Source: Isoperla grammatica
Taxonomy: Eukaryota > Arthropoda > Insecta > Plecoptera > Perlodidae
Assembly (NCBI GenBank): GCA_945910005.1
Contig: OX246743.1
Location: 632,122 to 696,121 of the forward strand
DNA length: 64,000 nucleotides
Direction of reading: 5' to 3'
A program made the translations under genes and the position numbers. The notes under the pieces were generated by a model. That model saw only the letters and a list, made by a program, of their open reading frames with translations. It made no database searches and had not been told where the DNA came from. Positions 1,441-64,000 of the stretch are shown one piece after another; position 1 is the stretch's first letter; every line of letters begins with the position of its first letter.

Positions 1441-1581
1441 CGAATGGAGCAGTTCTCGATCTGCAGCTGCTTCTCTCGTTCTACTCGCGTCATCAGCTCG
1501 CGGTGTCGTTTCTGCTCCTCAGCCAGTCGATCTTCCGCCCGAAGCTCCGCCTCTCGTAGCTGCTCCTCCAGCATGTGAACC
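1441..1581 (-). CDS. nuf: nuf (Rab11-FIP3/4-like) internal coding exon, coiled coil
   Basis: This exon encodes part of the long coiled coil of a Rab11 effector of the Rab11-FIP3/4 class, called nuclear fallout in arthropods. Such proteins link Rab11 recycling-endosome vesicles to motors and to the cleavage furrow. The exon reads VHMLEEQLREAEL at its start and then a charged heptad-rich helix containing RHRELMTRVEREKQLQIEN, which is characteristic of the family. It is 141 bp long. The acceptor (gtctgcacag) is just above 1581 and the donor (CG/gtaagt) just below 1441. Its first base completes the Arg codon begun by the exon at 2306-2409, and it ends with two bases of the next codon. The downstream exon and the C-terminal Rab-binding domain are outside the window. 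Family recognition is from memory of the conserved helix. Confidence 0.88.
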
Positions 1582-2305
1582 CTGTGCAGACAGTACGGAC
1601 ATAAATACACATGTGAACTCTGTGCAGACAGTATGGAGATAAATACAAACAAGTAAATACAATCACAATGAGGTGTGGCTCGTAAATAATAAATAATAGT
1701 AAATAATAAATGCATTCGATTCCCGGTTTGAACTGGCGTTTTTAAATAAGGAAATTGTTGTATATTTTGTTTAAATTTTTGTATTAGGCTACCACTTTTT
1801 AATGACAACTTTCAACTCTCAAATTCATAATCATATTTGAAGGTTACCTGTTGGATCCTATCCCTACACTCAACCGTCGTTTTAAAGAAATATTGTGCAA
1901 CTCGTACAAAATTATATTCTGGTCCCTGAGAGTTTGATATAAAGAAGTATCAAAATAATCTAACTGGACATAAAGTCTTTTTAGCAATAATTGTCTCTAA
2001 ATTTAGCATTAATTATTATAAATTTACTATTAATTATTATAAATGTAGCATTAATTTGGTAGCATCTCTTTTTTCATTTCATGAAAACGTTGAATAAGAG
2101 ACGGTTCCTCGCACTTCTAATGGAATCATGTGCAGATATTTAAAATCAATTAAATTGTAGCTACGTTACTTTAGAACGTAAGGGTTAGAATAAATTCATA
2201 ACTAAATTTTAATAGGAATAGGAATACATTATTTGTTGTAAAATAAGCTTTCCACCGATTTATCAGTTAAAACCTAACCGTATCACCAGTATAGTGACGG
2301 CGTAC

Positions 2306-2409
2306 CTTGCTTGGAGCGCAGCGCTATCCTGCTTGGCCCGCGTGTAGCGATCATCCGTACTGGTCTGGTTGTCGGCCAATACTGTCATCTGCTGCTGCAG
2401 CATCTGCAC
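2306..2409 (-). CDS. nuf: nuf (Rab11-FIP3/4-like) internal coding exon, start of coiled coil
   Basis: This 104-bp exon encodes the beginning of the coiled coil. It starts in phase 0 with VQMLQQQMTVLADN and continues with DDRYTRAKQDSAALQA, both typical of the FIP3/4/Nuf helix. The acceptor reads cattgttttag and the donor AG/gtacgc. It ends two bases into a codon that the 1441-1581 exon completes as Arg, giving the continuous ALQA-R-VHMLEEQ. Because it starts in phase 0, it can accept either the 24899-25016 exon (ending LNHK) or the alternative first exon at 13281-13523 (ending ITDQ). The intron to the next exon is only 724 bp, short beside the upstream introns. Confidence 0.88.
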
Positions 2410-24898: not shown

Positions 24899-25016
24899 CT
24901 TGTGGTTGAGGTCCAAAACATCCTCTTCCAGTGACACATCCGAGTACATATCATCGGCGGGGTCACAGGTTGAGCTCCTGCCCGAAGAGTTGAAGCTGGA
25001 GCTGCGGTAGAGTTGG
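24899..25016 (-). CDS. nuf: nuf (Rab11-FIP3/4-like) internal coding exon
   Basis: This 118-bp exon encodes 39 full codons, beginning QLYRSSSFNSSGRSS and ending in an acidic stretch with MYSDVSLEEDVLDL before NHK. The Ser-rich patch followed by a D/E-rich segment running into the coiled coil is the diagnostic arrangement of arthropod Nuf proteins. The acceptor is gatgtttcag and the donor AAG/gtaagt. The first base completes an AGC serine codon begun by the 31607-31645 exon, giving ALA-S-QLYRSSSF. The exon ends in phase 0, matching the phase-0 start of the 2306-2409 exon. The Ser-rich segment may be a phosphorylation target, which is inference only. Confidence 0.9.
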
Positions 25017-29536: not shown

Positions 29537-31142
29537 AGTTATATAACCCGCGCTCGGCTCTCGGGGGAAAAGAGAGCAGGCTACACATTTTTGAAAGAAA
29601 TCACGGCTTCCTAGCACAGATGTCGCTTGATTTCCGCCTAGTGAGGTTCGTCCAACTCCCGAGTCCCAAGTCAAGTGGTCGCAGTTATATAACCCGCGCT
29701 CGGCTCTCGGGGGAAAAGAGAGCAGGCTACACATTTTGGAAAGAAACCACGGCTTCCTAGCACAGATGTCACTTGGTCTCCGCCTAGTGAGGTTCGTCTA
29801 ACTCCCGAGTCCCAAGTCAAGTTGTCGCAGTTATATAACCCGCGCTTGGCTCTCGGGGGAAATAGAGCAGGCTACACATTTTGAAAAGAAACCACGGCTT
29901 CCTAGCACAGATGTCACTTTATCTCCGCCTAGTGAGGTTCGTCTAACTCCCGAGTCCTAAGTCAAGTGGTCGCAGTTATATAACCCGCGCTCGGCTCTCG
30001 GGGGAAATAGAGCAGGCTATACACATTTTGGAAAGAAACCACGGCTTCCTAGCACAGATGTCACTTGATCTCCGCCTAGTGAGGTTCGTCTAACTCCCGA
30101 GTCCTAAGTCAAGTGGTCGCAGTTATATAACCCGCGCTCGGCTCTCGGGGGAAAAGAGAGCAGGCTACACATTTTGGAAAGACATCACGGCTTCCTAGCA
30201 CAGATGTCACTTGATCTCCGCCTAGTGAGGTTCGTCAAACTCCCGAGCCCTAAGTCAAGTGGTCGCAGTTATATAACCCGCGCTCGGCTCTCGGGGGAAA
30301 AGAGAGCAGGCTACACATTTTGGAAAGAAACCACGGCTTCCTAGCACAGATGTCACTTTATCTCCGCCTAGTGAGGTTCGTCAAACTCCCGAGCCCTAAG
30401 TCAAGTGGTCGCAGTTATATAACCCGCGCTCGGCTCTCGGGGGAAAAGAGAGCAGGCTACACATTTTGGAAAGACATCACGGCTTCCTAGCACAGATGTC
30501 ACTTGATCTCCGCCTAGTGAGGTTCGTCCAACTCCCGGGACCCAAGTCAAGTTGTCGCAGTTATATAACCCGCGCTCGGCTCTCGGGGGAAAAGAGAGCA
30601 GGCTACACATTTTGGAAAGACATCACGGCTTCCTAGCACAGATGTCACTTGATCTCGGCCTAGTGAGGTTCGTCTAACTCCCGAGTCCCAAGTCAAGTGG
30701 TCGCAGTTGTATAACCCGCGCTCGGCTCTCGGGGGAAAAGAGAGCAGGCTACACATTTTGGAAAGACATCACGGCTTCCTAGCACAGATGTCACTTTATC
30801 TCCGCCTAGTGAGGTTCGTCAAACTCCCGAGCCCTAAGTCAAGTAGTCGCAGTTATATAACCCGCGCTCGGCTCTCGGGGGAAAAGAGAGCAGGCTACAC
30901 ATTTTGGAAAGACATCACGGCTTCCTAGCACAGATGTCACTTTATCTCCGCCTAGTGAGGTTCGTCAAACTCCCGAGCCCTAAGTCAAGTGGTCGCAGTT
31001 ATATAACCCGCGCTCGGCTCTCGGGGGAAAAGAGAGCAGGCTACACATTTTGGAAAGACATCACGGCTTCCTAGCACAGATGTCACTTGATCTCCGCCTA
31101 GTGAGGTTCGTCCAACTCCCGAGTCCCAAGTCAAGTGGTCGC
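29537..31142 (+). repeat. 146-bp satellite, 11 units
   Basis: Unit starts recur at 29537, 29683, 29829, 29974, 30121, 30267, 30413, 30559, 30705, 30851 and 30997. Each contains agttatataacccgcgctcg, ggaaaagagagcaggctaca and cctagtgaggttcgtc. The last block resembles the internal part of the 3632-4515 element. Small reading frames on either strand are side effects of the repeat. Confidence 0.95.
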
Positions 31143-31286
31143 AGTCCGCTCCACAATGTTCTAAATCAGGTTATTGAAATGCGAGTCTGCAGCAGCGGAT
31201 CGTGAGACTGTTAAGATTTGATGTTCGTATATTTAGAACAAAATTTAAACCGAAATTGTGGGACGATATAAAATACTTATATTATA

Positions 31287-31606: not shown

Positions 31607-31645
31607 CTAGCTAGGGCATTGGATCCAATCCTTTTTCCGGAACTG
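31607..31645 (-). CDS. nuf: nuf small cassette exon with NAGNAG acceptor
   Basis: This 39-bp exon reads SSGKRIGSNALA in the frame set by its neighbours. It has a donor AG/gtgagt and an acceptor gttcacagCAG. The acceptor is a tandem NAGNAG, so the exon can start at 31645 or at 31642, which adds or removes one serine (HSSGK versus HSGK) without changing frame. The length is a multiple of three and both flanking phases are equal, so skipping it keeps the frame. The GSNALA sequence leading into SQLYRSSSF fits the conserved Nuf block. The exon lies between the 146-bp array and the 20-kb intron holding the Jockey element. Confidence 0.82.
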   Translation of the reverse strand, partial: QFRKKDWIQCPS

Positions 31646-32504: not shown

Positions 32505-33021
32505 CAAGCGAGCGAAGCGAGCGTCTCCACGAGACGCTTGTGGCACTTTGTTCTATTTTATTTTTTTTTTTTTTTTTTTTTGTGTACTAGACTCTTATGG
32601 CACTTCATTCTGTTTGTTTTTTGTTTTGTTTTTATGTCTGTCGATAGCGGTCGAACGGAAAGTCCGATCAACTTGAAATTTGGACCATACACAAGCCTCG
32701 ATGTGGATTGAAGGTGTATAGGTTTGAGGCAAAATCGTTCGAAAAGTTACAAGTTACACTATAATAACTGTTAGTAACGGTGGCGGACCGCCGCGAAAAC
32801 ACTAGACAGAATGACAACGAAAATTCTTAGCAACGCACATTGCACTGCATTCAACAATATCGGGAAGTATAATAGCTATGGAAATAAGAAAAAATTTTGA
32901 AATGCACATTGTTGAATGGTAGTTAATTGTTGTTTTTATTAGCTTTGAGATCTTTTCGCCAGAACGTTCGTAGATATGGACGCGCTCGCTTATCAACGCG
33001 TCAAACAGAGCGTTTTCCTAG
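32505..33021 (+). mobile_element. Dispersed non-coding element, copy 1 (possibly Helitron-like)
   Basis: The element starts aagcgagcgaagcgagcgtc and ends agagcgttttcctag followed by T. It shares most of its length with the copy at 58401-59139, including gatagcggtcgaacggaaag and agcctcgatgtggattgaag. The 3' end has a possible GC-rich hairpin (cgctc...gagcg) a few bases before CTAG, as in Helitrons. A canonical TC 5' end is not conserved between copies, so the class is uncertain. Confidence 0.6.
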
Positions 33022-35540: not shown

Positions 35541-38500
35541 TGGCCGTCATAAGCATTGACGTGGTACAATGAGCGCTTGGGTCTCGGGCGGGGCTCGAAC
35601 CCAGGTCCCCGGTACAAGATCCTCCAGGGCCGTCATAAGAGATGACGTGGTACAATGAGCGCTTGGGTCTCGGGCGGGGCTCGAACCCAGGTCCCCGGTA
35701 CAAGATCCTCCAGGGCCGTCATAAGAGATGACGTGGTACAATGAGCGCTTGGGTCTCGGGCGGGGCTCGAACCCAGGTCCTCGGTACAAGATCCTGCAGG
35801 GCCGTCATAAGAGATGACGTGGTACAATGAGCGCTTGGGTCTCGGGCGAGGCTCGAACCCAGGTCCTCGGTACAAGATCCTCCAGGGCCGTCATAAGAGA
35901 TGACGTGGTACAATGAGCGCTTGGGTCTCGGGCGGGGCTCGAACCCAGGTCCCCGGTACAAGATCCTCCAGGGCCGTCATAAGAGATGACGTGGTACAAT
36001 GAGCGCTTGGGTCCCGGGCGAGGCTCTAACCCAGGTCCCCGGTACAAGATCCTCCAGGGCCGTCATAAGAGATGACGTGGTACAATGGGCGCTTGGGTCT
36101 CGGGCGAGGCTCGAACCCAGGTCCTCGGTACAAGATCCTCCAGGGCCGTCATAAGAGATGACGTGGTACAATGAGCGCTTGGGTCTCGGGCGAGGCTCGA
36201 ACCCAGGTCCTCGGTACAAGATCCTCCAGGGCCGTCATAAGAGGTGACGTGGTACAATGAGCGCTTGGGTCTAGGGCGAGGCTCGAACCCAGGTCCTCGG
36301 TACAAGATCCTTCAGGGCCGTCATAAGAGATGACGTGGTACAATGGGCGCTTGGGTCTCGGGCGAGGCTCGAACCCAGGTCCTCGGTACAAGATCCTCCA
36401 GGGCCGTCATAAGAGATGACGTGGTACAATGAGCGCTTGGGTCTCGGGCGAGGCTCGAACCCAGGTCCTCGGTACAAGATCCTCCAGGGCCGTCATAAGA
36501 GATGACGTGGTACAATGAGCGCTTGGGTCTCGGGCGAGGCTCGAACCCAGGTCCCCGGTACAAGATCCTCCAGGGCCGTCATAAGAGATGACGTGGTACA
36601 ATGAGCGCTTGGGTCTCGGGCGAGGCTCGAACCCAGGTCCTCGGTACAAGATCCTCCAGGGCCGTCATAAGAGATGACGTGGTACAATGAGCGCTTGGGT
36701 CTCGGGCGGGGCTCGAACCCAGGTCCTCGGTACAAGATCCTCCAGGGCCGTCATAAGAGATGACGTGGTACAATGAGCGCTTGGGTCTCGGGCGAGGCTC
36801 GAACCCAGGTCCTCGGTACAAGATCCTCCAGGGCCGTCATAAGAGATGACGTGGTACAATGAGCGCTTGGGTCTCGGGCGAGGCTCGAACCCAGGTCCTC
36901 GGTACAAGATCCTCCAGGGCCGTCATAAGAGATGACGTGGTACAATGAGCGCTTGGGTCTCGGGCGAGGCTCGAACCCAGGTCCTCGGTACAAGATCCTC
37001 CAGGGCCGTCATAAGAGATGACGTGGTACAATGAGCGCTTGGGTCTCGGGCGAGGCTCGAGCCCAGGTCCTCGGTACAAGATCCTCCTGGGCCGTCATAA
37101 GAGATGACGTGGTACAATGAGCGCTTGGGTCTCGGGCGAGGCTCGAACCCAGGGCCCCGGTACAAGATCCTCCTGGGCCGTCATAAGAGATGACGTGGTA
37201 CAATGAGCGCTTGGGTCTCGGGCGAGGCTCGAACCCAGGTCCTCGGTACAAGATCCTCCAGGGCCGTCATAAGAGATGACGTGGTACAATGAGCGCTTGG
37301 GTCTCGGGCGAGGCTCGAACCCAGGTCCTCGGTACAAGATCCTCCAGGGCCGTCATAAGAGATGACGTGGTACAATGAGCGCTTGGGTCTCGAGCGAGGC
37401 TCGAACCCAGGTCCTCGGTACAAGATCCTCCAGGGCCGTCATAAGAGATGACGTGGTACAATGAGCGCGTGGGTCTCGGGCGAGGCTCGAACCCAGGTCC
37501 TCGGTACAAGATCCTCCAGGGCCGTCATAAGAGATGACGTGGTACAATGAGCGCTTGGGTCTCGGGCGAGGCTCGAACCCAGGTCCTCGGTACAAGATCC
37601 TCCTGGGCCGTCATAAGAGATGACGTGGTACAATGAGCGCTTGGGTCTCGGGCGAGGCTCGAACCCAGGTCCTCGGTACAAGATCCTCCAGGGCCGTCAT
37701 AAGAGATGACGTGGTACAATGAGCGCTTGGGTCTCGGGCGAGGCTCGAACCCAGGTCCTCGGTACAAGATCCTCCAGGGCCGTCATAAGAGATGACGTGG
37801 TACAATGGGCGCTTGGGTCTCGGGCGGGGCTCGAACCCAGGTCCTCGGTACAAGGTCCTCCAGGGCCGTCATAAGAGATGACGTGGTACAATGAGCGCTT
37901 GGGTCTCGGGCGAGGCTCGAACCCAGGTCCTCGGTACAAGATCCTCCAGGGCCGTCATAAGAGATGACGTGGTACAATGAGCGCTTGGGTCCCGGGCGAG
38001 GCTCTAACCCAGGTCCTCGGTACAAGATCCTCCAGGGCCGTCATAAGAGATGACGTGGTACAATGAGCGCTTGGGTCTCGGGCGAGGCTCTAACCCAGGT
38101 CCCCGGTACAAGATCCTCCAGGGCCGTCATAAGAGATGACGTGGTACAATGAGCGCTTGGGTCTCGGGCGAGGCTCTAACCCAGGTCCCCGGTACAAGAT
38201 CCTCCAGGGCCGTCATAAGAGATGACGTGGTACAATGAGCGCTTGGGTCTCGGGCGAGGCTCGAACCCAGGTCCTCGGTACAAGATCCTCCAGGGCCGTC
38301 ATAAGAGATGACGTGGTACAATGAGCGCTTGGGTCTCGGGCGAGGCTCGAACCCAGGTCCTCGGTACAAGATCCTCCAGGGCCGTCATAAGAGATGACGT
38401 GGTACAATGAGCGCTTGGGTCTCGGGCGGGGCTCGAACCCAGGTCCTCGGTACAAGATCCTCCAGGGCCGTCATAAGAGATGACGTGGTACAATGAGCGC

Positions 38501-39912
38501 TTGGGTCTCGGGCGAGGCTCGAACCCAGGTCCTCGGTACAAGATCCTCCAGGGCCGTCATAAGAGATGACGTGGTACAATGGGCGCTTGGGTCTCGGGCG
38601 GGGCTCGAACCCAGGTCCTCGGTACAAGGTCCTCCAGGGCCGTCATAAGAGATGACGTGGTACAATGGGCGCTTGGGTCTCGGGCGGGGCTCGAACCCAG
38701 GTCCTCGGTACAAGATCCTCCAGGGCCGTCATAAGAGATGACGTGGTACAATGAGCGCTTGGGTCCCGGGCGAGGCTCTAACCCAGGTCCCCGGTACAAG
38801 ATCCTCCAGGGCCGTCATAAGAGATGACGTGGTACAATGAGCGCTTGGGTCTCGGGCGAGGCTCGAACCCAGGTCCTCGGTACAAGATCCTCCAGGGCCG
38901 TCATAAGAGATGACGTGGTACAATGAGCGCTTGGGTCTCGGGCGAGGCTCGAACCCAGGTCCTCGGTACAAGATCCTCCAGGGCCGTCATAAGAGATGAC
39001 GTGGTACAATGAGCGCTTGGGTCTCGGGCGAGGCTCGAACCCAGGTCCTCGGTACAAGATCCTCCAGGGCCGTCATAAGAGATGACGTGGTACAATGAGC
39101 GCTTGGGTCTCGGGCGAGGCTCGAACCCAGGTCCTCGGTACAAGATCCTCCAGGGCCGTCATAAGAGATGACGTGGTACAATGGGCGCTTGGGTCTCGGG
39201 CGGGGCTCGAACCCAGGTCCTCGGTACAAGGTCCTCCAGGGCCGTCATAAGAGATGACGTGGTACAATGAGCGCTTGGGTCCCGGGCGAGGCTCTAACCC
39301 AGGTCCCCGGTACAAGATCCTCCAGGGCCGTCATAAGAGATGACGTGGTACAATGAGCGCTTGGGTCTCGGGCGAGGCTCGAACCCAGGTCCTCGGTACA
39401 AGATCCTCCAGGGCCGTCATAAGAGATGACGTGGTACAATGAGCGCTTGGGTCTCGGGCGAGGCTCGAACCCAGGTCCTCGGTACAAGATCCTCCAGGGC
39501 CGTCATAAGAGATGACGTGGTACAATGAGCGCTTGGGTCTCGGGCGGGGCTCGAACCCAGGTCCTCGGTACAAGATCCTCCAGGGCCGTCATAAGAGATG
39601 ACGTGGTACAATGAGCGCTTGGGTCTCGGGCGAGGCTCGAACCCAGGTCCTCGGTACAAGATCCTCCAGGGCCGTCATAAGAGATGACGTGGTACAATGG
39701 GCGCTTGGGTCTCGGGCGGGGCTCGAACCCAGGTCCTCGGTACAAGGTCCTCCAGGGCCGTCATAAGAGATGACGTGGTACAATGAGCGCTTGGGTCTCG
39801 GGCGGGGCTCGAACCCAGGTCCTCGGTACAAGATCCTCCAGGGCCGTCATAAGAGATGACGTGGTACAATGAGCGCTTGGGTCTCGGGCGAGGCTCGAAC
39901 CCAGGTCCTCGG
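35541..39912 (-). repeat. 86-bp satellite array, about 51 units
   Basis: The unit includes gggccgtcataagagatgac, ggtacaatgagcgcttgggt and gaggctcgaacccaggtcct. On the minus strand it contains gggttcgagcc, which matches the Pol III B-box consensus. Variant units (aaggtcc instead of aagatcc at 37851, 38625, 39227 and 39743) recur at multiples of 86, showing higher-order duplication. Overlapping 80-codon frames are by-products of the repeat. The array is interrupted by the Jockey element at its right end. Confidence 0.97.
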
Positions 39913-40181: not shown

Positions 40182-42974
40182 CTACCTCACCCGTCTTTTC
40201 TTGGCAAAGAGGGGAAGGCGAATGTTGCGGTGGCGTCCACATGCCTGTGGGTTGGGAGGCCTGAATTCAAGGGTGTTTATGCTCGCGACTGGACGGAGAT
40301 ATCTATCATGAGGGTTGGGCATAAAGTCCAACTGTGACCTCACGAGAGGGTTTGGGTGCCGTGATAAAGAGTTAAAGAATTTAAGGGATCGATCCTGAAC
40401 CAACTTGTCTACCAAAGGTAGATCCAGAGAAGTGTGGAGCGGAACGATTGGGGTGTATTTAGGGAGGTGCATCACCACTCGGAGGACAGTATTTTGGAGG
40501 CGCTGTAATTTTAGAAAATTAGTATATGATGTGGTGCCCCATATGGGAGCGGCATATAGAAATGTGGGACGGATAACGGTCGTGTAGATCCGAAGACGGT
40601 CTTTCTCTGCAATAACTGGAGACCTCAGTATTGACTGAAGAGCAAACATTTTGTTACGACTCTTTTGCATCACTTTGGTAACATGATGGTTCCAGCTAAG
40701 ATGGCGGTCTAGAAGTGCACCAAGGTACAGATTGGTCTTGGACCATTCGATCGGGACACCGTCCAGAAAGAGGGGAAATTGTTTGAGGGCACGACCAGTG
40801 GTAAACATGGTAGCTGAAGTTTTGCCAACGTTGAGTTTAAAACGCCATTTGGCATACCATGGAGATATTAAGTCGAGACCAGCTTGGAGGTGTTTTACAG
40901 CAAGCTCCGCGGAGCGGGAGGTGGCAGCAATGGCGTCATCATCTGCAAAGAGATGCACATCAACACCCTTGGGCATTTCTGGCATGTCCGCCGTGTAAAT
41001 ATTAAATAGAGTTGGACTGAGTACTGATCCCTGAGGTACTCCTGCGCGTATTTTTCGTGGTGAAGACAGTGACCCCAGCCAGGATGCCCGAAAACTTCTT
41101 TTGTGGAGGAATGATTGGAGAAAGTGAATGATATGCAGGGGGAATTTGTACCGGGCTAGTTTCAATAACAAGCCAGCATGCCAGACTGAGTCGAAAGCTT
41201 TGGCAATGTCGAGGAAAGCAACGGCTGTGACTTTCTTGTTATTGAAACCATGGGTGATGCGATTTGTGAGACGTAAAAGTTGATGTTCCGTAGAGGTGTT
41301 TGCTACGAAACCAAATTGATACTGGGGGATAATGGTGTTTTCGGATAAATGGCGCTTGATGCGAGTTAGGACCAGAGACTCAAGCATTTTGGCCATGACA
41401 TTGAGAAGACTGATTGGTCTGTAGCTGGACGGGTCTGACGGCGGTTTCCCGGGTTTTAAGATTGAGATAATTTTGGCCATTTTCCAATTTTTTGGGAAAT
41501 ATGACGTAGTGAGGCACCGTTCATAAATATGGAAGAGGACTGCCACAGCTGACCCGGGAAGTTGTCGAATGAGCACCGCTCCTATACCGTCGGGACCAGG
41601 GGCTTTACGGGGGTTTAATTTGGAAAAGATGGTACGTAGTTCAAAGGGCTGTAAATTGTACTCTGGTGGGGGTTCCGGGCACACAGTTTTCGAAAAGTAG
41701 ATTTTCATTAACCTATCCAAATCAGGTTCGCCAGGAACTGGTGGATTTGGGATGAAGGCCATTTCCAGACTGCGCGAGATTGCCTCGGCTTTGTCCGGGC
41801 TACTAAGTGCCCAGCCTGCAGGTGTGAGGATCGGAGGATTGGGTGCTTTCGACTTCTGTAGCGTCTTGGCCATCCGCCAGATGGAGTTGTCGTGGTAAGA
41901 GAGAGTTGACAGTTTTGCTTCCCACTGCGATGACATATGGTCGGCAATATCGCGGTCAAGTGCACGTTGCAGTCTGTCGTATTCGGCCTTGCAGTCTGGC
42001 GTTCGGAACGCTTGCCAGCGCCGACGGGCTCGATTTTTCTGTCGCACACATGCACGAAGGGCAGGTGGTAAAGACAGATGTGTTGAGGGCGACGGTGTGT
42101 ATTTGGGGATTGCAACATTAGCTGCCTGACGGATAAGAGCCGATAGGAAGGAGATCGACGTATCGATAGCTGAAGATGAGTCGAGAAGTGGAAGTGGGAG
42201 GGCAGTGAGGCGGTTATGAATATGATTACGGAAGCGCTGCCAGTCGGCTTTTCCGTATGAGAACCGGGGGGTAGGTGGTTGGTAATTGATTTTGTTACCA
42301 ATATTTATGAGGATCGGATTATGGTCGGATGTGAGTGCCTGGACTGTCGAAATATCGTAAGATGTGTGGATGTTCCGAATAATGGCAATGTCTAGCACAT
42401 CAGGAGGGGTAGTGTCCCGATAGTGGTAGTATGTTGGTTCGACAGGCCCAGTGACATTGAGTCTAAGGTTGGTAGACGTGATGAAACGAAGAAGAGCAAG
42501 TCCCCGCGTGTTGTTGACAGCCGAATTCCAAAGATGGTGTTTGGCATTTAAGTCACCTGCCAGAACAGTCGGCATTTGTGAAGTGAAGAGGGAATTAAAG
42601 TCGGTGCCAGTGAAATGTTTATTTGGGGGCGAGTATGCTGCGATGCATCGCATCGGGCCAGCAGCCGTTTTCACAATCGCGATAGTGGCTTCGACCGCAG
42701 AAAGAAGGGGGGTGGGCTCTTGAACGACGGCGGCTGTAGAGCGAGAGAGAATGGCGGTACCACCCCCTCTCGTACGTTTAGACGCTGTCAGTCGATCGTT
42801 ACGGAGAATTTGGAAGCCGGGAATAGACCAGTTGTCGGAAGGGAGTAGGTGTGTTTCATTGATGAGAATGATGTCTATGGAAAGTTGATGGACAAGGTGG
42901 ATGAGTTCTGCCGTTTTGCGACGAACTCCTCCATTGGCGTTCCACGCCAGTAATTTCAATTCCAGCTTAGCCAT
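40182..42974 (-). CDS. Jockey ORF2: endonuclease and reverse transcriptase
   Basis: This 930-residue protein would nick target DNA and reverse-transcribe the element RNA at the nick. The N-terminal APE-type endonuclease shows the LLAWNANGG motif (Asn12), INETH (Glu40, His42), AGDLNAKH (Asp141, Asn143) and LTSDHNP (Asp217, His218). The reverse transcriptase follows, with NPRKAPGPDGI, YRPISLLN, AKAFDSVWH, AGVPQGSVLSPTLFN and the catalytic FADD at about 676-679. The length is normal for Jockey and no stop or frameshift is seen. The ATG lies inside the end of ORF1 (ATGGCTAA overlap), so translation probably depends on ORF1 termination and re-initiation. I place it in the Jockey clade by motif style and the ORF1 type; a related I- or CR1-group clade is the alternative. 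Confidence 0.95.
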   Translation of the reverse strand: MAKLELKLLAWNANGGVRRKTAELIHLVHQLSIDIILINETHLLPSDNWSIPGFQILRNDRLTASKRTRGGGTAILSRSTAAVVQEPTPLLSAVEATIAIVKTAAGPMRCIAAYSPPNKHFTGTDFNSLFTSQMPTVLAGDLNAKHHLWNSAVNNTRGLALLRFITSTNLRLNVTGPVEPTYYHYRDTTPPDVLDIAIIRNIHTSYDISTVQALTSDHNPILINIGNKINYQPPTPRFSYGKADWQRFRNHIHNRLTALPLPLLDSSSAIDTSISFLSALIRQAANVAIPKYTPSPSTHLSLPPALRACVRQKNRARRRWQAFRTPDCKAEYDRLQRALDRDIADHMSSQWEAKLSTLSYHDNSIWRMAKTLQKSKAPNPPILTPAGWALSSPDKAEAISRSLEMAFIPNPPVPGEPDLDRLMKIYFSKTVCPEPPPEYNLQPFELRTIFSKLNPRKAPGPDGIGAVLIRQLPGSAVAVLFHIYERCLTTSYFPKNWKMAKIISILKPGKPPSDPSSYRPISLLNVMAKMLESLVLTRIKRHLSENTIIPQYQFGFVANTSTEHQLLRLTNRITHGFNNKKVTAVAFLDIAKAFDSVWHAGLLLKLARYKFPLHIIHFLQSFLHKRSFRASWLGSLSSPRKIRAGVPQGSVLSPTLFNIYTADMPEMPKGVDVHLFADDDAIAATSRSAELAVKHLQAGLDLISPWYAKWRFKLNVGKTSATMFTTGRALKQFPLFLDGVPIEWSKTNLYLGALLDRHLSWNHHVTKVMQKSRNKMFALQSILRSPVIAEKDRLRIYTTVIRPTFLYAAPIWGTTSYTNFLKLQRLQNTVLRVVMHLPKYTPIVPLHTSLDLPLVDKLVQDRSLKFFNSLSRHPNPLVRSQLDFMPNPHDRYLRPVASINTLEFRPPNPQACGRHRNIRLPLFAKKRRVR

Positions 42975-44754
42975 TGTTAGGTGCAGAGATGAGTGTTTTA
43001 AGAAGGGTAGCTAGGGTGGAAATGATGGGGTCGCTGGAATAGGCGATGAGGGCATCGGCTATTTGGCCGATGATAGTCCAGGCCGGGTTACGACCTTGGG
43101 GAGCAAGTGGAGGCGGCAGCAGTGGAGGCGGCGGTTGTGAAGGTGGTACATGGCCACGTGGACGCCGTGGGGCGGGAACTGGGCCATGGGGTTGAGAAGA
43201 CTGTGACGGACTGGTGTGTGGTACATCAGTTAGGTCAGGTGGAGACTGTTGTGGTGTCGAGGCCTGAACAGCTTGTGCGTACGAGACTAGTGGGGGAAAT
43301 GCGGCACTGAAGGTGGCTGTGGGGAAGCTAGCACGCTGTTGTGAAGCTACAGTCGGCGGAGGTGGTTGCTTTTGGCGGCGGTTTGTTACCGGACGGCCTG
43401 GCTGGTTTTGGTTGCTCTGTGCTCGGGCATCACATGCATCAAGATATGCCTTGCATTTACGGTACGAGGCTGGGTGGGCTTGTTTGCAGTTGACGCAAGT
43501 GGCGGGTGAGTCGGGGGATTTGGGGCAATGCGCTGACTTGTGGGCCTGGGCGCATTTAAAGCACGCCGGCGGAAGATGGCAGAAGGCCGATGAATGGCCA
43601 AATTGTTGGCAATTGAAGCATTGCCGTGGACCTGATTGGCCACGGTAACGTTCAAATGTCACTTTGTGGTGGCAGATGATGGTGACTGTATGAAGGGGGA
43701 CGCCGGTGTCAAAGAGAGAGACGGTGGCAACAAACAAGGGCATGGGTCGACGAGTGGACGGAGAGTCGCCATTATGCAGGATTTGACGGAGGTCAACGAT
43801 ATTGACGCCCTGCTCCGTTAGATCAAGTTTTATGTCCTCGACTGGCACAGAGGAGGAAAGACCGCGAATTACGAGACGTTTCTGTCTCTGTTCGACGGTC
43901 GGGAAAGTGTGAAAGAGGAGTTTATTGCCCCGTAAATATTGGAAAATCTCGTCATAGGTTTGACGGAGATTGGGTTTAATGCGGAAGGCTTCCGCTGTGG
44001 CCGAGATGGTATATGCCCCTTTGGTGGCCTTGGCCAATAGGGTGACCAAAGAGGAATAGTTTTCGATGTTGTATAAGAGGATGGGCGGGGGTTTCGAGTC
44101 GGAGGGGTGCTGATTGGCAGTCCCAGGGTTAGCTTGGTCCGAGGAAGTTGCTGGGGGATGCGTAGCTACCGGCTTATGTATTACGGAGCTGGGACTTGCA
44201 CGTTGTGCATGGAGTTTCGGTGGCCTGGATGCGGTAGAGCGGACAGAAGACGCGTCCGAGTCGGGGGAGAGCGAGTGGGTCCGGCGACGTTTCGGACGCA
44301 CCGTTTTGCTGGTCGAGGGTTGAGACTGGCATAGCTCCATCTCGCTTTCAGCGCCGGAGTCTATGACCAGGGAGTTGTCGTCGTCCGACATGATGTCGCA
44401 GTCGACATCTAGGGCCAGAAACCTATTTGCGGTGGGCGTTACTGGCCTGTCTGGGACTGGTTGATCGGGTAGTGGAGCTGATGGAGGGACTCCTGCGTCA
44501 GTTGAAATAATGGGGAAGGAGTAACGGCCCTTTCGCGGCTCCTTCACCTTCAGTGGGATCTTAGTCCACACTGGAGGTGGTTCAGGAGTGCGTGGTTTAG
44601 ATGTTGTAGCTGCCATAAGGGGCGGGATTATCGGGGGTAGCATCCCGGTGGAGGTACCAGGTTGAGAATGTTTAGTTGTGGCCCTCTTATGGGGCAAGAA
44701 TTGGGGAAGACCAGCGGCGGGCGTGGCCTTCGGGTGAAATGGCGGGAAAACCAT
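42967..44754 (-). CDS. Jockey ORF1: Gag-like RNA-binding protein
   Basis: This 595-residue protein would coat the element RNA. It has a long Pro/Ser-rich, low-complexity N-terminal half, a folded middle part, and three zinc knuckles at about residues 379-434 (CFNCQQFGHSSAFC, CFKCAQAHKSAHC, CVNCKQAHPASYRKC) typical of Jockey/I-group Gag. A Pro-rich tail follows. I chose the ATG at 44754 because it has a strong Kozak context (gccATGG). The open frame extends further upstream, but without an earlier ATG in good context. The last codons overlap the ORF2 start by 8 bases. Confidence 0.92.
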   Translation of the reverse strand: MVFPPFHPKATPAAGLPQFLPHKRATTKHSQPGTSTGMLPPIIPPLMAATTSKPRTPEPPPVWTKIPLKVKEPRKGRYSFPIISTDAGVPPSAPLPDQPVPDRPVTPTANRFLALDVDCDIMSDDDNSLVIDSGAESEMELCQSQPSTSKTVRPKRRRTHSLSPDSDASSVRSTASRPPKLHAQRASPSSVIHKPVATHPPATSSDQANPGTANQHPSDSKPPPILLYNIENYSSLVTLLAKATKGAYTISATAEAFRIKPNLRQTYDEIFQYLRGNKLLFHTFPTVEQRQKRLVIRGLSSSVPVEDIKLDLTEQGVNIVDLRQILHNGDSPSTRRPMPLFVATVSLFDTGVPLHTVTIICHHKVTFERYRGQSGPRQCFNCQQFGHSSAFCHLPPACFKCAQAHKSAHCPKSPDSPATCVNCKQAHPASYRKCKAYLDACDARAQSNQNQPGRPVTNRRQKQPPPPTVASQQRASFPTATFSAAFPPLVSYAQAVQASTPQQSPPDLTDVPHTSPSQSSQPHGPVPAPRRPRGHVPPSQPPPPLLPPPLAPQGRNPAWTIIGQIADALIAYSSDPIISTLATLLKTLISAPNNG

Positions 44755-44823
44755 GGCAAGAATGTGATAGTTTACTATCTGGGAGGGGGAGGGGGTGAGG
44801 AAGGGGAAGAGAGAGGGTTTAAA

Positions 44824-45075
44824 CACCCGACACCGCCACTAGCGCGGGGGACAGAACCCTGCCGCGGTCGCGTTGGTGAGCGGGATAAGGGAAGGGAGGG
44901 AGGGTGTAAGACCCGACACCGCCACTAGCGCGGGGGACAGAACCCTTCCGCGGTCGCGTTGGTGAGCGGGATAAGGGAAGGGAGGGTGTAAGACCCAACA
45001 CCGTCACGATCGCGGGGGAATTTCCGCAATCGCGTTGGTGGTAAGGGGAGAAAGGGGAAGGGAGGAAGGGAGGAG
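44824..45075 (-). repeat. Jockey 5'UTR tandem monomers, about 3 copies
   Basis: Blocks starting acccgacaccgccactagcg and containing ccgcggtcgcgttggtgagc recur at 44825, 44911 and 44993. The third is more diverged. They lie between the element's 5' end and ORF1, a position where other non-LTR elements carry promoter monomers. Confidence 0.75.
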
Positions 45076-48454: not shown

Positions 48455-48455
48455 G

Positions 48456-50990
48456 TTCCAGCACTAATTGGCTACTTGTCTGATGCTACCGTAGCGACAT
48501 CTCTGAGAGAAGCGTACTAACTTTACTTAGTGCTACTTAGTTCCAGCACTAATTGGCTACTTGTCTGATGCTACCGTAGCGACATCTCTGAGAGAAGCGT
48601 ACTAACTATACTTAGTGGTACTTAGTTCCAGCACTAATTGGCTACTTGTCTGATGCTACCGTAGCGACATCTCTGAGAGAAGCGTACTAACTATACTTAG
48701 TGGTACTTAGTTCCAGCACTAATTGGCTACTTGTCTGATGCTACCGTAGCGACATCTCTGAGAGAAGCGTACTAACTATACTTAGTGGTACTTAGTTCCA
48801 GCACTAATTGGCTACTTGTCTGATGCTACCGTAGCGACATCTCTGAGAGAAGCGTACTAACTATACTTAGTGCTACTTAGTTCCAGCACTAATTGGCTAC
48901 TTGTCTGATGCTACCGTAGCGACATCTCTGAGAGAAGCGTACTAACTATACTTAGTGCTACTTAGTTCCAGCACTAATTGGCTACTTGTCTGATGCTACC
49001 GTAGCGACATCTCTGAGAGAAGCGCACTAACTATACTTAGTGGTACTTAGTTCCAGCACTAATTGGCTACTTGTCTGATGCTACCGTAGCGACATCTCTG
49101 AGAGAAGCGTACTAACTATACTTAGTGCTACTTAGTTCCAGCACTAATTGGCTACTTGTCTGATGCTACCGTAGCGACATCTCTGAGAGAAGCGTACTAA
49201 CTATACTTAGTGGTACTTAGTTCCAGCACTAATTGGCTACTTGTCTGATGCTACCGTAGCGACATCTCTGAGAGAAGCGTACTAACTATACTTAGTGCTA
49301 CTTAGTTCTAGCACTAATTGGCTACTTGTCTGATGCTACCGTAGCGACATCTCTGAGAGAAGCGTACTAACTATACTTAGTGGTACTTAGTTCCAGCACT
49401 AATTGGCTACTTGTCTGATGCTACCGTAGCGACATCTCTGAGAGAAGCGCACTAACTATACTTAGTGGTACTTAGTTCCAGCACTAATTGGCTACTTGTC
49501 TGATGCTACCGTAGCGACATCTCTGAGAGAAGCGTACTAACTATACTTAGTGGTACTTAGTTCCAGCACTAATTGGCTACTTGTCTGATGCTACCGTAGC
49601 GACATCTCTGAGAGAAGCGTACTAACTATACTTAGTGCTACTTAGTTCCAGCACTAATTGGCTACTTGTCTGATGCTACCGTAGCGACATCTCTGAGAGA
49701 AGCGTACTAACTATACTTAGTGGTACTTAGTTCCAGCACTAATTGGCTACTTGTCTGATGCTACCGTAGCGACATCTCTGAGAGAAGCGTACTAACTATA
49801 CTTAGTGCTACTTAGTTCCAGCACTAATTGGCTACTTGTCTGATGCTACCGTAGCGACATCTCTGAGAGAAGCGTACTAACTATACTTAGTGGTACTTAG
49901 TTCCAGCACTAATTGGCTACTTGTCTGATGCTACCGTAGCGACATCTCTGAGAGAAGCGCACTAACTATACTTAGTGGTACTTAGTTCCAGCACTAATTG
50001 GCTACTTGTCTGATGCTACCGTAGCGACATCTCTGAGAGAAGCGTACTAACTATACTTAGTGGTACTTAGTTCCAGCACTAATTGGCTACTTGTCTGATG
50101 CTACCGTAGCGACATCTCTGAGAGAAGCGTACTAACTATACTTAGTGGTACTTAGTTCCAGCACTAATTGGCTACTTGTCTGATGCTACCGTAGCGACAT
50201 CTCTGAGAGAAGCGTACTAACTATACTTAGTGGTACTTAGTTCCAGCACTAATTGGCTACTTGTCTGATGCTACCGTAGCGACATCTCTGAGAGAAGCGT
50301 ACTAACTATACTTAGTGGTACTTAGTTCCAGCACTAATTGGCTACTTGTCTGATGCTACCGTAGCGACATCTCTGAGAGAAGCGCACTAACTATACTTAG
50401 TGGTACTTAGTTCCAGCACTAATTGGCTACTTGTCTGATGCTACCGTAGCGACATCTCTGAGAGAAGCGCACTAACTATACTTAGTGGTACTTAGTTCTA
50501 GCACTAATTGGCTACTTGTCTGATGCTACCGTAGCGACATCTCTGAGAGAAGCGCACTAACTATACTTAGTGGTACTTAGTTCCAGCACTAATTGGCTAC
50601 TTGTCTGATGCTACCGTAGCGACATCTCTGAGAGAAGCGTACTAACTATACTTAGTGGTACTTAGTTCCAGCACTAATTGGCTACTTGTCTGATGCTACC
50701 GTAGCGACATCTCTGAGAGAAGCGCACTAACTATACTTAGTGGTACTTAGTTCCAGCACTAATTGGCTACTTGTCTGATGCTACCGTAGCGACATCTCTG
50801 AGAGAAGCGTACTAACTATACTTAGTGGTACTTAGTTCCAGCACTAATTGGCTACTTGTCTGATGCTACCGTAGCGACATCTCTGAGAGAAGCGTACTAA
50901 CTATACTTAGTGGTACTTAGTTCCAGCACTAATTGGCTACTTGTCTGATGCTACCGTAGCGACATCTCTGAGAGAAGCGTACTAACTATA
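48456..50990 (+). repeat. 85-bp satellite, 30 units, no indels
   Basis: The unit begins ttccagcactaattggctac and ends gtactaactatacttagtgg, then tacttag. Unit starts fall at exact multiples of 85 from 48456 to 50921. Only a few positions vary (gcgt/gcgc, gtgg/gtgc, ttcca/ttcta). Confidence 0.97.
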
Positions 50991-51643: not shown

Positions 51644-51688
51644 TGCCTGAAGGAACCCCATCTCTTGTTGGGCGAGGTCTCTTGATTG
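51644..51688 (-). CDS. nuf: nuf small cassette exon
   Basis: This 45-bp exon is read as NQETSPNKRWGSFR in the frame imposed by the upstream exon. The acceptor is gtgtttcag and the donor CA/gtgagt. The first base completes AGC (Ser) after the 54664-54834 exon. The last two bases plus the first base of the 31607-31645 exon give His, so the join reads RWGSFR-H-SSGKRIG. The exon is a multiple of three with matching phases, so it could be included or skipped as a cassette. Another frame through the exon is also open, but only this one keeps phase on both sides. Confidence 0.75.
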
Positions 51689-53597: not shown

Positions 53598-54663
53598 CAA
53601 CACGAATATAAATTAGACTGCAACAAAACATTGGACATTCACGACAAATCTTTCACTATGAGAACATGGAGCACGCTTATTGATTACAAGATAATTCATT
53701 GATAGTCTCAACATCGCTGTCACGAGGGGAAGTAACACGTGGTCACAAATATTAAACAGTCAAAATAAATGAAATAAGCACGTGGTGCCAAACAGGTACA
53801 AATAACTAACACACACAAAAGGAGGAGTTCAATATTCTTTGTAAACGGGTCAAAGAAACAAACTTAACAATCTACTACTTGTTCCAACCACTCTAATAAG
53901 AAAGGTCTTGAAATCAATTACTTGTTGATTGAATCAAATGTTGAATCGTGAAAACCGATAAAATCAATTACCCGCATTGAACAATGAACAATTAAACAGT
54001 TCATGCTTGAAATTTATGAAACTGTCAAACTCAACCGCAATTCTAATAAAAAACACAAAAATATAAATTTTCAAATGTTGAAACCGTGTGTTTTGTTCAG
54101 AAATTGACAAACTATTGTAGGTATAAATATATATACATGTTTATTCAATATACGATTTTCGAGTTTATAGTATGTATTCGATTGCAGTTTGAAAATTCAC
54201 ACAAGAATAATTACTGGCCATGGCGCAAAGCGCTGTGACAATACTCAATACGCTGTATCTTGAATTGATATCAATTACATGTTTCAAAAGTGTTCGATTA
54301 CTTTACCTAGAACATAGATTTATGTGACGCAACCTACCTCAAGAGTGCTGCTCTTCACGATTACCCACTGTACTCTTGTCATAACAAGACGACAGATCAC
54401 ATCAAACGAGGAACTCACAGTTATTTACAATAATCATATAAAGAAAACACTTTGATCACCACTATTCGCGAGACCTTATTTAATCCGATAGAATATAGTT
54501 ACTAACGCAATGCAATATTGTGTATAATAAAAGCAAACACTAGTAGTTGTCTATGTCAGTGCAGTGTCAAGCACGTGCGTGTGTGACGCGTTGCCTTGCA
54601 CGGCTTGCACGGCTTGCACAGCACGGACGTCTTACTAAACCAGTGACTGATTGTACAACTGAC

Positions 54664-54834
54664 CTGGACGGAGTTCGCCTCAAACTCGTTCTCAGCCAGG
54701 TATTGCGGCCGAGCGGGAGACTGGAGGGCCCATTGGAGGACAAGATGGGGGTCGGGGGGTCAGCGTCCAGCTCTAGGTCCACGCCTTGACCATAGCACTC
54801 GTAGTTCTCTCCATCAGACATGCTGGAGCACTGG
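54664..54834 (-). CDS. nuf: nuf coding exon, the functional copy at the edge of the 112-bp array
   Basis: This 171-bp exon encodes SQCSSMSDGENYECYGQG, then VDLELDADPPTPIL, then NTWLRTSLRRTPS. These are recognisable Nuf segments: an acidic SDGENYE motif followed by a basic WLR-SLRRTP motif. The acceptor is gtctgtctattgcag and the donor TCCAG/gtcagt. It starts one base before a codon and ends two bases into one, matching the 51644-51688 exon. Its first ~67 bp and the 45 bp of intron before it are repeated 29 more times upstream (toward 58.1 kb), but only this copy continues into the rest of the exon and a donor. The upstream exon that splices into it was not found and is probably beyond 64 kb. 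Confidence 0.85.
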
Positions 54835-57800
54835 CTGCAATAGACAGACAAGACATATTAGACACACATTGGAGGGGGTCAGCTCTAGGTCCACGCCTTG
54901 ACCATAGCACTCGTAGTTCTCTCCATCAGACATGCTGGAGCACTGGCTGCAATAGACAGACAAGACATATTAGACACACATTGGAGGGGGTCAGCTCTAG
55001 GTCCACGCCTTGACCATAGCACTCGTAGTTCTCTCCGTCAGACATGCTGCAGCACTGGCTGCAATAGACAGACAAGACATATTAGACACACATTGGAGGG
55101 GGTCAGCTCTAGGTCCACGCCTTGACCATAGCACTCGTAGTTCTCTCCGTCAGACATGCTGGAGCACTGGCTGCAATAGACAGACAAGACACATTATAGA
55201 CACACATTGGAGGGGGTCAGCTCTAGGTCCACGCCTTGACCATAACACTCGTAGTTCTCTCCGTCAGACATGCTGGAGCACTGGCTGCAATAGACAGACA
55301 AGACATATTAGACACACATTGGAGGGGGTCAGCTCTAGGTCCACGCCTTGACCATAGCACTCGTAGTTCTCTCCGTCAGACATGCTGGAGCACTGGCTGC
55401 AATAGACAGACAAGACATATTAGACACACATTGGAGGGGGTCAGCTCTAGGTCCACGCCTTGACCATAGCACTCGTAGTTCTCTCCGTCAGACATGCTGG
55501 AGCACTGGCTGCAATAGACAGACAAGACATATTAGACACACATTGGAGGGGGTCAACTCTAGGTCCACGCCTTGACCATAGCACTCGTAGTTCTCTCCGT
55601 CAGACATGCTGGAGCACTGGCTGCAATAGACAGACAAGACATATTAGACACACATTGGAGGGGGCCAGCTCTAGGTCCACGCCTTGACCATAGCACTCGT
55701 AGTTCTCTCCGTCAGACATGCTGGAGCACTGGCTGCAATAGACAGACAAGACATATTATACACACATTGGAGGGGGTCAGCTCTAGGTCCACGCCTTGAC
55801 TATAGCACTCGTAGTTCTCTCCGTCAGACATGCTGGAGCACTGGCTGCAATAGACAGACAAGACATATTAGACACACATTGGAGGGGGTCAGCTCTAGGT
55901 CCACGCCTTGACCATAGCACTCGTAGTTCTCTCCGTCAGACATGCTGGAGCACTGGCTGCAATAGACAGACAAGACATATTAGACACACATTGAAGGGGG
56001 CCAGCTCTAGGTCCACGCCTTGACCATAGCACTCGTAGTTCTCTCCGTCAGACATGCTGGAGCACTGGCTGCAATAGACAGACAAGACATATTAGACACA
56101 CATTGGAGGGGGTCAGCTCTAGGTCCACGCCTTGACCATAGCACTCGTAGTTCTCTCCGTCAGACATGCTGGAGCACTGGCTGCAATAGACAGACAAGAC
56201 ATATTAGACACACATTGGAGGGGGCCAGCTCTAGGTCCACGCCTTGACCATAGCACTCGTAGTTCTCTCCGTCAGACATGCTGGAGCACTGGCTGCAATA
56301 GACAGACAAGACATATTAGACACACATTGGAGGGGGTCAACTCTAGGTCCACGCCTTGACCATAGCACTCGTAGTTCTCTCCGTCAGACATGCTGGAGCA
56401 CTGGCTGCAATAGACAGACAAGACATATTAGACACACATTGGAGGGGGTCAGCTCTAGGTCCACGCCTTGACCATAGCACTCGTAGTTCTCTCCGTCAGA
56501 CATGCTGGAGCACTGGCTGCAATAGACAGACAAGACACATTAGACACACATTGGACGGGGTCAGCTCTAGGTCCACGCCTTGACCATAGCACTCGTAGTT
56601 CTCTCCGTCAGACATGCTGGAGCACTGGCTGCAATAGACAGACAAGACACATTAGACACACATTGGAGGGGGTCAGCTCTAGGTCCACGCCTTGACCATA
56701 GCACTCGTAGTTCTCTCCGTCAGACATGCTGGAGCACTGGCTGCAATAGACAGACAAGACATATTAGACACACATTGGAGGGGGTCAGCTCTAGGTCCAC
56801 GCCTTGACCATAGCACTCGTAGTTCTCTCCGTCAGACATGCTGGAGCACTGGCTGCAATAGACAGACAAGACATATTAGACACACATTGGAGGGGGCCAG
56901 CTCTAGGTCCACGCCTTGACCATAGCCCTCGTAGTTCTCTCCGTCAGACATGCTGGAGCACTGGCTGCAATAGACAGACAAGACATATTAGACACACATT
57001 GGAGGGGGCCAGCTCTAGGTCCACGCCTTGACCATAGCCCTCGTAGTTCTCTCCGTCAGACATGCTGGAGCACTGGCTGCAATAGACAGACAAGACATAT
57101 TAGACACACATTGGAGGGGGTCAGCTCTAGGTCCACGCCTTGACCATAGCACTCGTAGTTCTCTCCGTCAGACATGCTGGAGCACTGGCTGCAATAGATA
57201 GACAAGACATATTAGACACACATTGGAGGGGGTCAGCTCTAGGTCCACGCCTTGACCATAGCACTCGTAGTTCTCTCCGTCAGACATGCTGGAGCACTGG
57301 CTGCAATAGACAGACAAGACATATTAGACACACATTGGACGGGGTCAGCTCTAGGTCCACGCCTTGACCATAGCCCTCGTAGTTCTCTCCGTCAGACATG
57401 CTGGAGCACTGGCTGCAATAGACAGACAAGACATATTAGACACACATTGGAGGGGGTCAGCTCTAGGTCCACGCCTTGACCATAGCACTCGTAGTTCTCT
57501 CCGTCAGACATGCTGGAGCACTGGCTGCAATAGACAGACAAGACATATTAGACACACATTGGAGGGGGTCAGCTCTAGGTCCACGCCTTGACCATAGCAC
57601 TCGTAGTTCTCTCCGTCAGACATGCTGGAGCACTGGCTGCAATAGACAGACAAGACATATTAGACACACATTGGAGGGGGCCAGCTCTAGGTCCACGCCT
57701 TGACCATAGCACTCGTAGTTCTCTCCGTCAGACATGCTGGAGCACTGGCTGCAATAGACAGACAAGACATATTAGACACACATTGGAGGGGGTCAGCTCT

Positions 57801-58116
57801 AGGTCCACGCCTTGACCATAGCACTCGTAGTTCTCTCCGTCAGACATGCTGGAGCACTGGCTGCAATAGACAGACAAGACATATTAGACACACATTGGAG
57901 GGGGTCAGCTCTAGGTCCACGCCTTGACCATAGCACTCGTAGTTCTCTCCGTCAGACATGCTGCAGCACTGGCTGCAATAGACAGACAAGACATATTAGA
58001 CACACATTGGAGGGGGTCAGCTCTAGGTCCACGCCTTGACCATAGCACTCGTAGTTCTCTCCGTCAGACATGCTGGAGCACTGGCTGCAATAGACAGACA
58101 AGACATATTAGACACA
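54768..58116 (-). repeat. 112-bp minisatellite made of a nuf splice acceptor plus truncated exon, 30 copies
   Basis: Thirty copies occur at a 112-bp period; one copy near 55122 is 114 bp. On the minus strand each unit is about 45-50 bp of intron end, with a possible branch site (gtctaatatg), a pyrimidine-rich tract and ttgcag. This is followed by about 62 bp of the 54664-54834 exon through GTGGACCTAGAGCTG. The lowest-coordinate copy is the real exon. Unit boundaries fit a tandem duplication across the short repeat CAG. Copies are nearly identical. The two nearest the real exon share a synonymous GAT where the others have GAC. Since 112 is not a multiple of three, reading out of a decoy copy into the next one reaches TGA. 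The 75-codon plus-strand frames through the array have no sign of being genes. Confidence 0.95.
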
Positions 58117-58400
58117 TTTAAGTTAGTTAGATAATCTTTATTTGTCAGAATGAGATGACAAAAAAATAGCTAAGTGCACTTTTAGTTACTTTTTCCCGTC
58201 AACAAAACTTTTGAATGGAGGTAAGTGAGAAAATATAAGCCGTTGTTACACAAATCGAGCAAAGACTGTACTTGGAACTAAAAAGAGTATTTTAACTCAA
58301 TTTCACCGAAAATGGCCATACTGCCGAATGTCGCTAAATAGTATTAAGACATGATCGGCTAGAAATACACGCCAAGCATTGTATTACGCACTGTGATTTT

Positions 58401-59139
58401 TAAGCGAGCGAAGCGAGCGTCTCCACGAGACTCTTATGGCACTTCGATCTGTTTTTGTTTTTTTTTTTTTGTTTTTTTTATGTCCGTCGATAGCGGTCGA
58501 ACAGAAAGTCCGATCAACTTGAAATTTAGACCATCTACAAGCCTCGATGTGGATTGAAGGTGTATAGTTTTGAGGCAAAATCGTTTGAAAAGTTACAAAG
58601 TTACACCATAGTTACTGCAAAATATTTTTGTAAAACAAAATGGCGGCAAAATGTGAGATAGCCATATTTTTTTAAAGCTTTTTCCGGTCACGAATATGTT
58701 CATTTAATGGCTATCTGATCAATATTGGCAAAGTTACACAAAAGTTACTCGAAAATATTTTTCTGAAACACGGTAACAGCAAAATGTGAGGTGGCTATCT
58801 TGTAGTAAATTGTCGTCCGGTCACGAATATACTAATTTAAACGCAATCGGATACGTATTAGAGGCAGAAATTACATTTCTTTTGCTGTCAATAGCTGTTA
58901 GTAACGGTGGCGGACCGCGGCGAAAACATGACAACGAAAATTCTTAGCAACGCACATTGCACTGCATTCAACAATATCGAAAATTATAATAGCTATGGAA
59001 ATTAGACAAAAAATTTGCAATGTGCATTCTTTAATTGTTGTTAATTGTTGTTTTTATTAGCTTTGAGATCTTTTCGCCAGAACGTTCGTAGATATGGACG
59101 CGCTCGCTTATCAACGCGTCAAACAGAGCGTTTTCCTAG
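58401..59139 (+). mobile_element. Dispersed non-coding element, copy 2 (possibly Helitron-like)
   Basis: It has the same ends as the 32505-33021 copy (aagcgagcgaagcgagcgtc ... agagcgttttcctag, then T) but is longer, with an extra middle segment at about 58610-58890. No protein is encoded. Confidence 0.65.
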
Positions 59140-59265
59140 TAATTAAAACAGGGCTTTATAAAAACAAAATACATTTTTGTAAGTTAACAACTACTTCAAA
59201 GTTCAAATCCAAAAATTACAAAATCAGTTTTTTAAGGTACGCACAACTGACGTAACAGCCGAACT

Positions 59266-63600: not shown

Positions 63601-64000
63601 ACTCGATGCTGTTAACATAACCAGCAAAATTCGTCAAAATGCCAACCTACAAAAAATAAATTACTGAAAAATAAAATTTGTTTATTTATTTAATTAAATG
63701 AAAACTTACAAACGGATTTTAATGATGTTTCACTAATAGATTATCATCAACAGTACCAACACTTGACAATAGTTTCAATATTGTAAATTCATCCGCCATG
63801 TTATAAAAAAATATTGTTTTTTTACGGTAATAATTTTTTCATTTTTACAGTGTTCCACCGATATCATTCGCATTTGCGGATCTTTGCAGTTAAATGCACA
63901 TAATAAACACAAAAATAGCGATTGCAATCATACCTTTCTCATTATTATTTGGAATCTCGATAGCTGTCATAAAAAGGCTACAATGACGTAAGATGCCAAC

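Follow-up and report, generated by a model that had tools for sequence, protein, structure and literature searches.

The intron upstream of exon A of the nuf gene in Isoperla grammatica contains a large junction-spanning minisatellite of the kind described in amphioxus. In the window (the whole stretch of 64,000 nucleotides analysed) 29 tandem units, 28 of 112 bp and one of 114 bp, are found at 54835..58116 on the minus strand. TRF delimits the array at 54768-58116 (period 112, 29.9 copies, 98% matches) and agrees with a unit-by-unit parse on the 29 decoy copies upstream of the real nuf exon that a sequence-only reading of this DNA had proposed. Provided that the assembly is reliable here, the array is thereby confirmed as real. 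It probably represents a minisatellite of the mirage type in an insect genome rich in tandem arrays, and its decoys are probably passed over by splicing for the most part.

A composite of the candidate exons compared with insect proteins identifies the gene as nuf (Rab11-FIP3/4; best E 2.3e-65), and no protein near-identical to this query was present among the 120 listed of 591 matches. Six exons were placed on the minus strand using tblastn with eleven insect nuf orthologues. Exon A (54664..54834), a frame-neutral cassette of 171 nt, exon D (24899..25016, QLYRSSSFNSSGRSS...LNHK), exon E (2306..2409) and exon F (1441..1581) were recognised by tblastn, splice sites and frame. Exon B (51644..51688, NQETSPNKRWGSFR) and exon C (31607..31645, SSGKRIGSNALA) are weak alone (best E 0.014 and 0.40, respectively) and were placed by order, splice sites and frame. 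The six exons have GT-AG ends throughout and join in frame into 206 residues with no stop, and 176 of 205 aligned residues are identical to Timema. Orthologue matches, splice sites and frame thus bear out the earlier assignment of the gene to nuf on the minus strand, with the real exon where it had been located.

The nuf sequence appears polyneopteran-like, being placed near Timema/stick insects, cockroaches, a termite and a locust in a tree with weak support. A frame shift within exon A, suggested by a second open frame (QYLAENEF...), was rejected since the orthologues follow the first frame through NTWLRTSLRR. Neither the N-terminal part of nuf nor an exon upstream of A was found by tblastn in the window, up to position 64000, and the array-bearing intron is therefore probably longer than 9 kb.

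The consensus unit is built up by 79 nt of exon-like sequence and 33 nt resembling the end of the intron (GTGTGTCTAATATGTCTTGTCTGTCTATTGCAG). The intron end displays a branch-site-like motif, a pyrimidine tract and TTGCAG, and the portion of exon A common to the units, scattered changes apart, is its 5' 67 nt. The anatomy outlined earlier, a 112-bp unit with about 62 bp of exon, therefore stands, but the shared exon length had been set too low and one unit is 114 bp long. On the minus strand the first exon base of the 29 decoys is at 58084 in the copy farthest from exon A, followed by 57972 and so on down to 54946, and the real exon starts at 54834. This gives a series of 30 acceptors spaced at 112 bp, except for one step of 114, and the unit at 55284 is the sole 114-bp decoy unit. 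The expected row of 30 near-identical 3' splice sites is present in that TTGCAG is intact at every one of the 30 acceptors; CTAAT at -27 is found at 28 of them.

The units vary little. Twelve of 29 are identical to the consensus and 16 have one or two substitutions, the 114-bp unit being scored merely as a length variant in this comparison. Eight of 79 positions vary in the exon part and three of 33 in the intron part when the 114-bp unit is left unresolved; that unit adds at least one exon change and a 2-nt length change in the intron part. In the frame of exon A, five of the eight variable exon positions are protein-changing and three are silent. Variants are common to several units, and the last decoy and the real exon A have one silent change in common. 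The variation between units gives no sign of selection on the exon or intron part, on the splice signals or on the frame. A higher-order period of seven units was considered and dropped (p 0.015 for lag 7 by itself, 0.23 when any lag is allowed). The idea that RNA structure conceals the decoys was likewise rejected, as the one unit folded against shuffled sequences gave a z of 0.07, with 107 of 200 shuffles as good.

Splice sites were scored with approximate matrices, by which 28 of the 29 decoy acceptors reach 7.39, the same value as the real acceptor, and one reaches 7.60. The donor of the real exon A, CAG|GTCAGT, was found where it had been expected (GT at 54662..54663, minus strand) and scores 8.50. 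A donor had also been attributed to the last acceptor alone, which is incorrect because a weak AAT|GTGTGT, formed at the unit junction 79 nt past the acceptor, is present in 29 of 29 decoy units (one per unit; GT of the first at 58004..58005, minus strand). This donor scores 5.67 and the donor of the real exon B 5.84. With a weak donor of their own, the units are 79-nt pseudo-exons and more than mere acceptors, and some use of the decoys is plausible because their acceptors match the real one and their donors score close to that of exon B.

In GTGTGTCTAAT the unit donor runs directly into the branch-site-like motif that belongs to the following acceptor, and joint binding at the two would therefore hardly be possible; 33 nt is also very short for an intron. 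With the sites of the real exons counted in, 87 acceptors and 108 donors at least as strong are found outside the array on the minus strand of the window, and a donor follows within 50-250 nt downstream of 27 of these 87 acceptors. Such pairs are thus common across the window, which argues against giving the pairs in the units much weight. Recursive (ratcheting) splice sites were rejected since all 30 acceptors read AG|CC and not AG|GT.

Reading through from a decoy meets a stop in all 29 units, as had been foreseen, at 130 nt in 28 cases and at 88 nt in the remaining one. When one to three pseudo-exons were joined to exon A or B, a stop was obtained in five of five tested joins. Like a poison exon, an included unit would therefore lead to a premature stop by either route.

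Skipping of exon A leaves the nuf frame open because of its length of 171 nt. At least three database-predicted isoforms lack this exon, in Periplaneta (P0013), Cryptotermes (P0014) and Schistocerca piceifrons (P0016); they go from GKS straight into later sequence, and P0016 is also without exon B. Being frame-neutral and absent from the predicted isoforms of relatives, exon A can thus be bypassed. A count of isoforms by the pattern TW.RTS was dropped, as 77 of the 120 listed proteins were flagged, many of them through a differently written motif. Certain nuf isoforms of mosquitoes (P0031, P0037, P0038) retain SQCSSLSDGESFECYG and are without the segment containing TRHSWSRTSLRG that is found in P0095 among others, and this region of nuf therefore appears to be alternatively spliced beyond the polyneopterans too.

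The statement in the sequence-only reading that no system like this has been described has to be revised, because the mirages of amphioxus are a precedent in the accessible parts of two papers (PMC3087553, PMC3902484). Mirages are there described as intron-exon boundaries of amphioxus genes that have been duplicated in the manner of minisatellites (PMC3087553). The accessible text of that paper also states that many mirage units bear AG/GT signals, that the arrays are length-unstable and that those of BflGb6 have 3 and 6 units with 81-100% identity, and it proposes boundary-spanning arrays as raw material for new introns; Adh3 data and RT-PCR suggest that mirages leave regular splicing undisturbed (PMC3087553). 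No splicing interference is likewise reported for TnC, and similar imperfect repeats are found in PGBD5, according to the available portion of the second paper (PMC3902484).

The nuf units likewise cross an exon-intron boundary and contain splice signals. The array is bordered by an authentic exon (exon A, 54834-54664) whose frame is intact and continues into exons B-F, and the near-identical units with 98% matches and shared variants are those of a minisatellite undergoing turnover. The nuf array differs from the mirages in that it is found in an insect gene and has 29 extra units, compared with 3 and 6 in BflGb6, and in that the identity of its units is 98%, compared with 81-100%, as far as the amphioxus paper is accessible. 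The resemblance is anatomical, with length instability and normal splicing being reported, in the accessible text, for amphioxus. Searches by title and abstract in the open-licence literature rendered no insect case of a boundary-spanning array. To our knowledge mirages are known only from amphioxus, and Adh is said to have been the subject of the original mirage report.

Dscam-type arrays have many exon-like copies in a row, as do the nuf units. A Dscam-type array of alternative exons was nevertheless rejected because the nuf copies are partial, near identical and 79 nt long, a length not divisible by three; copies that are near identical, partial and frame-breaking make protein diversity from this source impossible. 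Decoy exons such as that of OGT are reportedly single conserved elements, and the units of the VNTR in ABCA7 are said to hold no exon edge, unlike those of nuf. In the accessible part of the literature, decoy exons promote intron retention and are likewise splice sites without a productive partner that may occupy splicing factors, whereas the nuf array consists of 29 copies that are nearly identical and give no indication of conservation. The human ABCA7 VNTR is likewise an intronic tandem repeat linked to splicing, according to the accessible part of its description (PMC5954066).

The array probably arose from a segment reaching from the last ~33 nt of the intron into the 5' part of exon A, which was at one time tandemly duplicated. 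The intron at the far edge of the array reads TTAAATGTGTC, the exon CCTCCAATGGGCCC and the unit junction CCTCCAATGTGTGTC. AATG is common to exon and intron at the join, the junction has one additional TG, and the length from GAGCTG to CCAATG is 24 nt less in the unit than in the exon. Judging from these sequences, a junction-spanning duplication through short homology followed by expansion would account for the junction. Growth to 29 extra copies probably took place through unequal exchange or conversion, a mode of expansion presumably shared by the other long arrays of the window.

All extra copies lie on the 5' side of the real exon A, within the preceding intron. Splicing most likely keeps to the last acceptor, since no other is followed by a complete exon and a good donor, or else skips the frame-neutral exon A, and a portion of the transcripts may go to decay. 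Exon definition, put forward earlier as the reason why the gene survives, is plausible. The most likely situation would be that the decoys are mostly ignored by splicing and that the array is tolerated and not used. A regulatory role of the array is possible, if unsupported.

Five arrays with units of at least 30 bp and at least 11 copies make up 12,840 of the 64,000 bp in the window according to TRF. Further long arrays are located in nuf introns at 48455-50990 (85 bp, 30 copies), 29537-31145 (146 bp, 11 copies) and 28158-29132 (30 bp, 33 copies). An 86-bp unit is repeated 51 times with 97% matches at 35542-39912. This unit contains a stretch that we take to be similar to a tRNA T-arm (GGTTCGAGCC), and the array may therefore derive from a SINE.

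A second, small junction-spanning repeat in nuf is a two-copy tandem duplication of 38 bp across the acceptor of exon F (1572..1647, minus strand, 92% identical), found by TRF and by a scan for local duplications. Two of the 12 nuf exon edges lie in local duplications, namely the acceptors of A and F, and none of the six donors. Random sites were found in local duplications in 125 of 600 cases (120 of 136 inside eight listed arrays and 5 of 464 outside), by match criteria slightly unlike those of the exon-edge scan. Outside the arrays the comparison is 1 of 11 edges with 5 of 464 sites, for which simple arithmetic gives a chance of about 0.11. An excess of duplications at splice junctions is not claimed since the edge rate is not above random, and an array over an exon edge may therefore simply be expected in such a genome.

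It is rather unlikely that the array weakens exon A, with competing sites drawing splicing factors off so that the short in-frame nuf isoform dominates. The exon is frame-neutral and missing from predicted isoforms of three relatives, and it is preceded by 29 acceptors equal in strength to its own, but its open frame, the conserved NTWLRTSLRR and both splice sites are kept as in an exon still used, and amphioxus mirages are reported as not disturbing splicing. That the array is a regulatory device, in which 29 non-productive pseudo-exons set the nuf mRNA level by decay and copy number serves as a dial, is consistent with an acceptor and a weak donor in each unit and with the stops found on read-through (29/29) and in tested pseudo-exon joins (5/5). 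This appears improbable because neither the splice signals nor the frame show traces of selection, pairs of acceptor and donor scored in this way occur frequently elsewhere (27/87 outside the array) and exon-free arrays fill the same introns. Equally doubtful is a dial in which exon A inclusion or the nuf mRNA level follows from how many units are present, a number that would differ from one individual to another and perhaps also between tissues. In that case the 29 acceptors beside weak junction donors would draw spliceosomes from exon A, and U1 and branch-site factors would exclude each other where donor and branch-site-like motif meet.

An assembly artefact, by which a shorter real repeat was drawn out or the reverse, is very unlikely. 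Long arrays are difficult to assemble, the copy number rests on one assembly, and a mis-assembled mirage is reported in the accessible part of the amphioxus paper (PMC3087553). However, deviations from the consensus are present in 17 of 29 units and are scattered and non-periodic (any-lag p 0.23), which argues against a looping assembly because this would not yield such differences. We consider it extremely improbable that the region is a pseudogene copy of nuf with the real exon elsewhere. The window yielded neither the N-terminal part nor an exon preceding A, but these can lie beyond it, and six exons that match orthologues, with introns kept, GT-AG sites and 206 residues joined in frame without a stop, 176 of 205 identical to Timema, speak against a pseudogene.

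A mirage-type minisatellite in nuf extends the amphioxus phenomenon to an insect gene, with a copy number above the counts (3 and 6) given in the accessible amphioxus text. It also provides a natural test of how splicing picks one among 30 near-identical acceptors, since with the acceptors being the same any choice must stem from donor strength, exon body or order. The two-copy case at exon F may show an early stage of such arrays.

The window also contains dispersed elements. A non-LTR retrotransposon that looks young occupies 40182-44838 (minus strand) and has two long open frames, of 942 aa and 623 aa. Relatives of the 942-aa frame bear endonuclease and reverse transcriptase domains (120 of 143 matches listed), and the 623-aa frame has what we take to be zinc-knuckle-like motifs. 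The minus-strand translations of 58390-59150 and 32560-33020 are alike by eye (e.g. SVRPLSTDIK and DIVECSAMCVAKNFRC), and a dispersed repeat is therefore present just beyond the nuf array.
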